Source: Streptomyces sp. NBC_00335
GTDB taxonomy: Bacteria > Actinomycetota > Actinomycetes > Streptomycetales > Streptomycetaceae
Direction: 5' to 3'
Assembly (NCBI RefSeq): GCF_036127095.1
Contig: NZ_CP108006.1
Coordinates: forward strand, 1,054,001-1,118,000
DNA: 64,000 nt
In this document: positions 61,535-64,000 of the stretch, one piece after another
Position numbering within the stretch: position 1 is the first letter of the stretch
Layout: each line of letters begins with the position of its first letter
Notes under the pieces: model-generated
Told to the model about the DNA's origin: nothing
The model's database searches: none
What the model saw: only the letters and a program-made list of their open reading frames with translations
Position numbers and translations under genes: made by a program

Positions 61535-61945
61535 CGTCGCCGCCTTCAGGGGGAGTTCCGGCCTCGTCGCCGGATCACTGGGCCAAAACTCACCCGAAAT
61601 CAAGGTTCCGTCAATATGACCAAAGTCCCGAGAGGGAGGTACCCGTACGTCCCGAATTACCACAGAGGAGGGAAGAGCAGTCCGAAAGTCACTCCATGAC
61701 CACCACTCTGACCTGCACTGATGCGCTTTAGTCCTTATCGCCTTTGGCGTGATATCGATTCGATAACGAACCAAACCGGGCGGTGCAGGTTGACTTCTTA
61801 TCGCCGGTTAACGAAAGCTGGCACTAATGCGGTTTACCCAGCACACCCCTCACCCGCATACCGCACGACAGCTCCGCCACTCCTGCCGACCCCACCCACC
61901 CGGATCGTCCGGCACGTACCGCCGGTGAAAGAGGGATTGACAGCC
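61535..61945. other. Divergent regulatory region between mannoside operon and msiK
   Basis: 411 bp without a gene, noticeably AT-richer than its surroundings. Holds a perfect palindrome at 61753-61765 and, near 61790, GGTTGACTTCTTATCGCCGG with TTGACT as a possible -35. On the minus strand ATTGACGGAACC near 61609 may be a -35 for the binding-protein gene. Confidence 0.5.
61753..61765. promoter_or_regulatory. Palindrome TATCGATTCGATA, candidate operator
   Basis: Perfect 13-bp inverted repeat (TATCGA-T-TCGATA) midway between two divergent transport genes, 219 bp before the binding-protein start and 181 bp before msiK. It does not match CebR or DasR sites that I know; the regulator is unidentified. 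Confidence 0.5.
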
Positions 61946-63037
<1,092 letters not shown>

Positions 63038-63063
63038 TCCGAGTGGCCCGACCGGCCCCGATG

Positions 63064-63096
63064 GCCCCGGACCGGGGGATGGCGCCGGTCCGGGGC
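63064..63096 (+). terminator. Terminator of msiK
   Basis: Perfect 12-bp stem GCCCCGGACCGG/CCGGTCCGGGGC with a 9-nt loop, 26 bp past the stop codon. A CTCCGGACG 9-bp repeat (about three copies) follows at 63117-63140. Confidence 0.8.
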
Positions 63097-63187
63097 TCTC
63101 CCGTGCGGGAGCGGTTGCTCCGGACGCTCCGGACGCTCCGGCAACCCCGTGGCGCCGGCGCCCTCGGCCGGGGTAGGTTCCCTGCCA

Positions 63188-63260
63188 CGGCGTGTAGCTC
63201 AGCAGCCAGAGCACCGGCCTGCACAGCCGGAGGGCGCAGGGGCAGGACCTGCCACGCCGA
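63188..63260 (+). ncRNA. tRNA-like cloverleaf with GCA (Cys) anticodon and abnormal loops, in a gene leader
   Basis: All four stems pair perfectly: acceptor CGGCGTG/CACGCCG (63188-63194, 63253-63259), D-stem GCTC/GAGC, anticodon stem CCGGC/GCCGG, T-stem GCAGG/CCTGC. T8, A9, A26 and T33 are in place; the anticodon loop is CTGCACA (anticodon GCA) and the variable loop has five bases. However, the D-loop (AGCAGCCA) lacks the GG pair, the T-loop is GGCAGGA rather than TTCxAxx, and base 73 is A where tRNA-Cys needs U. The elbow contacts of a normal tRNA could not form. It ends two bases before the ATG of the next gene, so it may be a regulatory mimic or a processing signal. Confidence 0.65.
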
Positions 63261-63262
63261 CG

Positions 63263-64000
63263 ATGACCGAGAACACGATCCCGTACGCGACGCAGGTCCG
63301 AACGGCCGGCGAGGTGGCGCGGCTGCTCGCACGGCGACGACCGAAGCGCGCCCTCGCCGCGGAGCGCGAGGCCCTGACCGTGTGGCGCCCCTTCGAGGAC
63401 GAGCTCCTCGCGTACTGGCTGCGCGGCGCGGACGCCACCCTCGCGGAGGGTGCCGACCTGCTCGACCGGTACGAGGCCCTCGCGGCGGCGCACCCCCTGA
63501 CCAGCCGGCACCGCGACCCTCGGTCCCCCGCGGCGATCCTGCGCCGGGCCGTGCGGGAGCGGGTCTCGGGTCGCGAACTTCCGCCCGGGCCGGACGGGTT
63601 GGTCCACCACGCCACGGCGTCGATGGTGGCCCGGCACGGAGCCCCCGGTTCCGCCGCGCACACCCGGATGCGCCAGGATCAGGCCCGCCGGGCGGCCCGG
63701 CCCGCGCACCACGAACTGGCCGCGCTGGTGAGCCGCCGCCTGGCCCGGCTCGACCAGGACTCCGGACTCTCCGACGTGGACGCACCCGTCGCCCCGGTCA
63801 CCGCCGAGGAAGCCCGGGAGACCGGCCTGCCCGTCGGGACCCGGGTGCCCGCGTACGTGCGCGCCCTCGTCGCCACCGCCCTGCGCGCCCCCGCGGACGT
63901 GCTCGTCCAACGGGGCGTCGCCACCTCGGCGGAGGACACGGCCGGCCTGGCGGGACCGCTCCTCGACGCGGAACTCGCCCGGGGCCTCCGTCCGTACACC
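63263..64000 (+). CDS. Unrecognised protein, 3' end beyond the window
   Basis: Open from ATG 63263 to the window edge (246 codons) with very strong G/C third-position bias, so certainly coding. It begins MTENTIPYATQVRTAGEVAR and is Ala/Arg/Leu-rich and helical (LTVWRPFEDELLAYWLRGAD, LLDRYEALAAAHPLTSRH), with no signal peptide or membrane segment. I do not recognise the family. No Shine-Dalgarno precedes ATG 63263: the upstream bases belong to the tRNA-like fold. GTG 63314 is a possible alternative start. Confidence 0.75.
   Translation, partial: MTENTIPYATQVRTAGEVARLLARRRPKRALAAEREALTVWRPFEDELLAYWLRGADATLAEGADLLDRYEALAAAHPLTSRHRDPRSPAAILRRAVRERVSGRELPPGPDGLVHHATASMVARHGAPGSAAHTRMRQDQARRAARPAHHELAALVSRRLARLDQDSGLSDVDAPVAPVTAEEARETGLPVGTRVPAYVRALVATALRAPADVLVQRGVATSAEDTAGLAGPLLDAELARGLRPYT

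Follow-up and report, generated by a model that had tools for sequence, protein, structure and literature searches.

A conserved tRNA-like element directly upstream of a gene for a predicted all-helical protein in Streptomyces and in other bacterial phyla

The locus in Streptomyces sp. NBC_00335

The window is the whole stretch of DNA that was analyzed, 64,000 nucleotides of contig NZ_CP108006.1 of Streptomyces sp. NBC_00335. Near its end a tRNA-like cloverleaf lies directly before a protein-coding gene, with the following features.

63174..63179, plus strand: -10-like hexamer TAGGTT, beginning 14 nt 5' of the element (sequence; count of TANNNT in Streptomycetaceae)
63188..63260, plus strand: tRNA-like element, cloverleaf with stems of 7, 4, 5 and 5 bp, plus A73 (Rfam RF00005, 49.1 bits; RNAfold; covariance model R1; alignment A2)
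63201..63208, plus strand: D loop AGCAGCCA, with A18 G19 replacing G18 G19 (sequence; among relatives A18 accompanies G55 and G18 accompanies U55)
63219..63225, plus strand: loop at the anticodon position, CTGCACA (in the family C32 and U33 nearly fixed, 34-38 hypervariable)
63241..63247, plus strand: T loop GGCAGGA, Streptomycetaceae type GGCRGNN replacing TTCRANN (TTCGA kept in most wide relatives)
63261..63262, plus strand: spacer of 2 nt (CG) from base 73 to the start codon (sequence)
63263..64000, plus strand: gene for the partner protein, 488 aa, continuing beyond the window end (open reading frame L004:5264-6727; homologues)

The acceptor stem pairs CGGCGTG (63188-63194) with CACGCCG (63253-63259) and is followed on its 5' side by T8 and A9; the D stem GCTC/GAGC encloses the loop given above and is followed by A26; the anticodon stem CCGGC/GCCGG closes a loop consisting of C32, T33, GCA, C37 and the final A; and the variable region AGGGC leads to the T stem GCAGG/CCTGC, to A73, and across the spacer to ATG at 63263. 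Every feature that an earlier note on this DNA had listed for the cloverleaf (its stems and loops, T8/A9/A26/T33, GCA, C37 and A73) is read in the sequence, as is the distance of two nucleotides from its 3' end to the start codon. CCA is not encoded after the element.

With permissive filters the Rfam tRNA family (RF00005) matches 63188-63260 at 49.1 bits against a cut-off of 29, and in the interval 63000-63400 it is the sole family above cut-off, with no match to a T-box or other riboswitch leader. Covariance model R1, in whose construction this sequence was used in part, gives 91.1 bits. The element is missed by the default-filter Rfam scan and by ARAGORN run on the window, and is absent from a tRNA scan of its own genome that lists 73 other tRNAs, probably because its T and D loops are unusual. 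The minimum-energy structure from RNAfold is the exact cloverleaf and the centroid structure differs; the folding energy is unexceptional (z -1.30, with 24 of 200 shuffles folding equally well) and was dropped as evidence for the element.

Most members of the downstream protein family have ∼760-800 aa, the window copy and those of L065, L066, and L067 being shortened. The predicted model is all-helical with a few short strands (pLDDT 93.4, pTM 0.90, 92 sequences); the 92 members are mostly basic (median pI 8.66, range 5.7-10.1), and 43 polar or aromatic positions are conserved in at least 93% of members. Pfam, searched with 12 members at E up to 1 or 5, gives nothing over cut-off, including its TROVE family; four of ten members gave weak matches to other families, below cut-offs. 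Nothing over cut-off is returned by NCBIfam (2 members), PADLOC (2), PHROGs (3), or a search of PDB sequences (best E 0.92). A fold search with a poor first model (pLDDT 78) found no relative and one with the good second model no PDB fold match at E<=0.001, a missing match that does not prove a new fold. The protein is named hypothetical in nearly all record listings.

Elsewhere in the window, a match to the msiK RNA motif (RF01747) at ∼61884-61939 (L035:122-177) scores 32.3 bits, just below the cut-off of 33, and lies directly 5' of the in-frame ATG (∼61943) of an ABC-transporter ATPase gene that we take, from its sequence, to be MsiK-like.

Association of the element with one gene family

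Matches to the downstream protein are found in 29 of 199 same-genus genomes, and 29 loci (L065-L092 and L004) were examined. The element is present in 27 of these, with 28 elements in total, and absent from L090 and L091; an intact reading frame follows it immediately in 26 loci and a decayed one in L092. A scan of the 199 genomes with R1 under stricter filters yields 29 matches, spread over 27 genomes, that score 85.4-103.4 bits, all others scoring 67.3 bits or less. Because R1 was built from members of the same set, the scores of members are not independent, whereas the gap below them and the case of genome G103 are. Three lower matches (L120, L121, L122) were rejected as family members, being ordinary tRNA-Trp genes on reading. 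Element (at least 85 bits) and protein match occur together in 26 of the 199 genomes, among them G165 with a decayed gene; the element occurs without a protein match in one (G103), where remnants of the gene lie behind it; a protein match occurs without the element in three (G057, G064, G190), as fragments only; and neither occurs in 169 (Fisher p 4e-28, phylogeny ignored). Few candidates were scored per genome in the R1 scan of the genus and in the scans of the phylum, so that the occurrence counts are lower bounds. A search of the genome contigs with the window's own short protein gives no match.

Decayed copies of the gene occur in several loci. In G103 (L115) an intact element of 93.8 bits precedes a decayed, frameshifted gene copy, indicating that the element can outlast the gene. 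Fragmentary copies occur in L092 (G165), L090 (G057), and L091 (G064), and L092 keeps a complete element before a gene having neither an intact start nor an intact frame. Column identity averages 90% in the element and 62% in the protein, nucleotides and residues not being compared like for like. Among neighboring genes, which were clustered and not identified by domain, none is common beyond close relatives, so that no conserved operon partner is apparent.

Beyond the genus the distribution of the protein is patchy: 28 of 150 family genomes, belonging to 8 of 17 genera, have a match, in some cases a fragment, and across the phylum at least 4 of 396 genomes have one, including three from the same genus. 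A profile built from distant members retrieves 345 loci in named genomes; the 80 best were retained, a choice biased towards the query. By record titles, 53 of these best 80 of 345 are actinobacterial and 27 are others (Myxococcota and other deltaproteobacteria, Acidobacteria, Chloroflexi, Planctomycetes, Melainabacteria and the like, Verrucomicrobia, and others), many of the 27 being metagenome bins. Within the best 80 of 345, R1 finds same-strand tRNA-like elements at the 5' end of the gene in 73 loci, comprising 53 of 53 actinobacterial and 20 of 27 other loci, with one element in 36 loci and two in 37; ARAGORN agrees in most wide loci. In 418 kb of wide loci R1 gives 111 matches at E<=0.01, just one of which (L228) lies elsewhere and on the opposite strand, and ARAGORN calls that one tRNA-Pro. 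The remaining seven of the best 80 of 345 (L212, L217, L219, L221, L222, L232, L233), all with non-actinobacterial titles, have no element by R1 or a permissive Rfam scan, indicating that the protein can exist without a detectable one. The arrangement of one to three tRNA-like units followed by the gene on the same strand is, at the level of sequence, one that recurs across phyla, and the tie to the gene behind it that the earlier note had proposed holds both in the genus and among wide relatives.

Within Streptomycetaceae, tandem elements precede the gene in L088, L134, L141, L142, and L144 (two each) and in L151 (three); the second element of L134 is seen by ARAGORN and not listed by R1. The three in L151 (L151:188-517) stand before one gene copy, and the middle one is degenerate (38.3 bits).

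The protein is carried by six plasmids, and the element is present in both plasmid loci that were read. One of these, L235, lies on the Curtobacterium plasmid pS16, from another order, and encodes a remote member of the family with 34% identity to the Nonomuraea query. Its element is of the Streptomycetaceae type (92.7 bits), which hints at horizontal transfer. A phage origin was considered and rejected: 60 pattern matches in IMG/VR contigs include no confirmed relative, and 50,697 phage records contain no match to the protein.

Covariation confirms the fold. In alignment A2 (28 elements, 27 distinct rows) all 567 stem cells are paired (100%), with two-sided change at four pairs (3-70, 30-40, 31-39, and 51-63). 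In A6 (109 wide elements, 102 distinct) 99.5% of 2142 stem cells are paired in an alignment that was fitted to the model and so favors the cloverleaf, sliding the partners cutting pairing to 34-50%; two-sided change is found at 17 of 21 pairs, versus 8.7 ± 1.4 in shuffles. A6 draws on 72 loci, namely L153 and 71 of the best 80, the seven without matches, L228, and L231 being omitted; A5 comprises 50 loci, with L123, L125, and L147 (repeats), L138, L139, L149, and L152 left out. The stems are thus conserved in homologues, contrary to the outcome that the earlier note had named as speaking against it, and its judgement that the element is unlikely to be a product of chance is borne out by this conservation and the compensatory changes. 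It is conservation, not folding energy, that rules out a chance origin. A chance fold or decaying tRNA pseudogene, with which the misses by default tRNA scanners and the unexceptional energy would agree, is refuted by the pairing in A2 and A6 and by the fixed location before one gene family, and its probability is negligible.

The elbow covaries as well. Among elements with 7-nt D loops (n=119), the tertiary pair 18-55 is G18/U55 in 77, A18/G55 in 39, and something else in 3; with other D-loop lengths (n=46) most follow the same rule, five having GG with G55 in an ambiguous register and two fitting neither state. Positions 54/58 are T/A in 105 and G/G in 58 of 165 elements. A D loop with G18 G19 together with a TTCRA T loop, present in most wide relatives, is absent in the window and in the Streptomycetaceae type generally. 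Besides that type, elements of L176, L190, L216, L225, and L234 have the A18-G55 state, which suggests that it probably arose more than once.

The anticodon-position loop and the start of the gene

The loop at the anticodon position behaves differently from the rest of the element. C32 is invariant in 165 elements and U33 is present in 164 of them (exception, L065), yet 77 different loops of 4 to 7 nt are found. Loops of 4-6 nt occur in 22 elements; among the 143 elements whose loop has 7 nt there are 32 different anticodons, CGG being the commonest (25), so that the GCA of the window element is judged, on comparative grounds, to be incidental. A pyrimidine occupies position 37 in 22 of 61 distinct 7-nt loops, and the entropy of positions 34-37 in the wide set is 1.8-2.1 bits with a gap counted as a letter. 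At protein identities of >0.9, 0.8-0.9, and 0.7-0.8, change per site in loop positions 34-38 is 0.15, 0.37, and 0.43, and at fourfold-degenerate sites 0.15, 0.24, and 0.41, whereas the rest of the element changes by 0.030 at 80-90% and by 0.004 above 90% protein identity; these values compare the closest element pair of two loci having at least 300 shared codons, and the pairs are not independent. Rows lacking a usable coding call (L092, L134, L145, L146, L148, L150, L151, L153, L177, L214) do not enter the comparison. Loop changes often involve several bases at once, and in some closest element pairs, for example L162/L170, L185/L194, and L169/L173, the bodies differ at 0-2 of 67 positions and the loops at 3-5 of 7. 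Comparison thus shows that stems and elbow are under selection and that the anticodon is not. The rate of the loop fits either a functionless loop or diversifying selection, the data being compatible with both.

These observations bear on whether the elements are genuine decoding tRNA genes, a reading to which the canonical fold, the TTCGA T loops and sometimes encoded CCA outside Streptomycetaceae, and the many tRNA calls by ARAGORN would lend themselves. Nor does the missing encoded CCA argue against it, since most S. coelicolor tRNA genes lack it, CCA being added later in 53 of 65 tRNAs (PMC4681348). Near-fixation of C32 and U33 alongside so many loops, and a loop that changes about as fast as lightly constrained sites, argue against decoding. 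So do the 4-6 nt loops, the stop-reading TTA, the pyrimidines at position 37, 32 anticodons on one conserved body, the replacement of loops between close relatives, and the Streptomycetaceae D and T loops, which are unlike those of tRNA. Decoding is thus unlikely for the elements as a whole, and as an account of the family it is given a very low probability. The expectation of the earlier note that the window element should not act as tRNA-Cys agrees with its C37 and atypical D and T loops, and with the free variation of loops in the family. In L153 (G556) and many wide loci the elements have mostly canonical T loops, and ARAGORN labels them tRNA-Arg, tRNA-Pro, tRNA-Ser, and so on, or gives no assignable anticodon; genome annotations probably list some of these elements as ordinary tRNAs.

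In 47 of 50 Streptomycetaceae loci, between 1 and 3 nt separate base 73 from the start codon (1, 2, and 3 nt in 3, 22, and 22 loci), which is ATG in every one of the 47; the other three have no long frame starting nearby. A TANNNT hexamer starting -22 to -11 before the first element, most often at -16, is present in 42 of 49 Streptomycetaceae loci versus at most 6 of 49 in any of seven control windows further upstream, and in 41 of 72 loci of the wide set versus at most 7 in control windows. Such -10-like boxes in a narrow window suggest that the RNA begins a few nucleotides before the tRNA-like fold. Starts assigned by mechanical choice in the wide set fall 7-35 nt past the modelled element end in 52 of 73 loci. 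Near-flush starts occur outside Streptomycetaceae too, for example in L187, L191, L192, L201, and L209, and the starts chosen inside or before the modelled end in L167, L176, L188, L190, L202, L210, and L225 were probably misassigned, and in L167 there is, in addition, overlap between the element and the tblastn match. Coding extension through the element was considered as well, the ATG frame being stop-free through the last element in 42 of 49 Streptomycetaceae loci and likewise in the window (GTG 63149). It was rejected: the distance from element start to ATG modulo 3 differs among relatives (28, 16, and 5 of 49), so that no upstream reading is conserved.

The proposal in the earlier note that processing of the element releases a near-leaderless mRNA therefore holds in part: it fits Streptomycetaceae, given the spacing in 47 of 50 loci and the -10-like box in 42 of 49, and misfits most other bacteria, in which the start lies well past the modelled end. 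The same evidence underlies the main rival to the explanation preferred below, that of a purely cis-acting leader, in which the fold is a 5' signal for processing or translation control and the freed RNA has no further job. By this account either cleavage by tRNA-processing enzymes would yield a message without a leader, or the mRNA would be repressed by its own protein or by a tRNA-binding factor. The near-flush position and the exclusive use of ATG in Streptomycetaceae are in its favor, as is the frequency of leaderless mRNAs in S. coelicolor, where they make up 21% of primary start sites with AUG preferred (76.4%) (PMC4895711). An anticodon loop drifting near the fourfold-degenerate rate is likewise expected of a pure processing signal. 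However, with the start 7-35 nt past the element end in most loci outside Streptomycetaceae, a few near-flush cases aside, cutting would leave no leaderless start there; a single cut would not call for the paired copies in 37 of the best 80 of 345 loci or the triplet in L151; and C32 and U33, kept as constantly as they are, would not be required of a free loop. A purely cis-acting leader is accordingly regarded as a serious but doubtful possibility.

A proposed non-decoding RNA acting with its protein

The explanation preferred here, with a probability of roughly one half, is that the elements belong to a widespread family of tRNA-derived, non-decoding RNAs that are co-transcribed with a large, usually basic, all-helical protein and act together with it. 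In its favor are the association of element and gene in the genus, the elements at the 5' end in 73 of the best 80 of 345 wide loci, the covariation of stem pairs and of 18-55, the low variation of the element next to that of the protein, the -10-like boxes, the mostly basic proteins, and the lack of any other neighbor common beyond close relatives. The comparative facts are strong; the mechanism built on them would run as follows. Transcription would start a few nucleotides before the first element, and the tRNA-like unit would be excised by the tRNA-processing enzymes of the cell or stay as the folded 5' end of the message. In Streptomycetaceae the remaining mRNA would start 1-3 nt before the AUG and be translated as a leaderless message. 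The tRNA-like RNA would be bound by the protein encoded behind it, forming an RNA-protein unit that may be comparable in logic to Ro60 with Y RNA, and the anticodon loop would be displayed as a variable surface and not for decoding. That the protein binds the RNA we infer solely from their adjacency, and a leader acting purely in cis would produce nearly the same picture. Further points count against the preferred explanation: seven of the best 80 of 345 loci have no detectable element, and this set is biased towards the query; RNase P and RNase Z might cleave the element poorly in Streptomycetaceae because of its altered T loop; and a loop rate close to that of fourfold-degenerate sites is also expected of a functionless loop. 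The suggestions in the earlier note that the element is a decoy, or a partner of the encoded protein, are consistent with the pairing across phyla and are still hypotheses.

The boldest reading compatible with the data, rather unlikely as it stands, is a bait-and-guard system, in which the elements would be decoy tRNAs offering hypervariable anticodon loops to hostile or phage-induced anticodon nucleases, and the protein would hold intact decoys and be activated when a loop is cut. Such an arrangement would explain the constant body and elbow, the nearly fixed C32 and U33, the loops swapped between close relatives, the one to three decoys per locus, the patchy distribution, and the plasmid copies. 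The comparison of loop rates is compatible with it and with neutral drift of an unused loop alike.

Type III toxin-antitoxin loci such as ToxIN have repeated small RNA units upstream of one protein gene, and the present loci resemble them in having small RNA units directly 5' of one protein gene, in being patchy, and in being also plasmid-borne. They differ in that the RNA has a tRNA fold and the protein is several times larger and unmatched. A harmful protein held inactive by tRNA-like RNAs, as in those loci, would account for the shared arrangement, in which a promoter-like box is followed by one to three RNA units and then the protein gene, for the patchy occurrence (29 of 199 same-genus and 28 of 150 family genomes), and for the six plasmids and the decayed copies in G103, G165, G057, and G064. 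However, no toxin domain is found by Pfam (12 members) or PADLOC (2), the protein has ∼760-800 aa whereas type III toxins are far smaller, and patchiness suits many accessory functions equally well. An RNA antitoxin is therefore considered quite improbable.

Allo-tRNAs are unusual bacterial tRNAs. Bacterial tRNAs with 4-bp anticodon stems have also been described (PMC13092985). Like both of these, the present elements are deviating tRNA genes found by genome scans; unlike them, which are proposed to decode or are expressed as tRNAs, one body here carries 77 loops in 165 elements and is attached to one protein family. Ordinary tRNA-mRNA cotranscripts, such as the tRNA genes upstream of tufB in E. 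coli, likewise place a tRNA-shaped unit at the front of an mRNA, where it is cut off, as is proposed here, but theirs are normal decoding tRNAs with fixed anticodons.

A close parallel is bacterial Ro60 (Rsr) with its Y RNAs, of which YrlA has a tRNA-like domain (PMC7790460). In both systems a helical protein, RNA-binding in the case of Ro60, adjoins a small RNA with tRNA-like structure, and the tRNA-like part is non-decoding. In contrast to Ro60, the present protein family has no TROVE match among the 12 members searched in Pfam and no PDB fold match at E<=0.001, and in contrast to Y RNA the RNA consists entirely of one cloverleaf, whose anticodon loop is hypervariable and which lies at the 5' end of the unit that encodes the protein. 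No description of a pairing of a tRNA-like RNA with this protein was found in the open-licence literature, an absence that is not proof.

The pair may have stayed hidden because tRNA scanners overlook the elements or report them as unusual tRNAs, and because almost all listings call the protein hypothetical. Some annotated odd-anticodon tRNA genes in actinobacterial genomes may not be tRNAs of translation. A conserved RNA-protein gene pair in several phyla (by record titles) would be a new tRNA-built non-coding RNA system. It also constitutes a natural experiment: body and elbow of the tRNA are retained, the anticodon is set free, and A18-G55 takes the place of the elbow pair G18-U55. Should the protein sense or use mimics of tRNA, the pair would offer a new route into bacterial tRNA surveillance.
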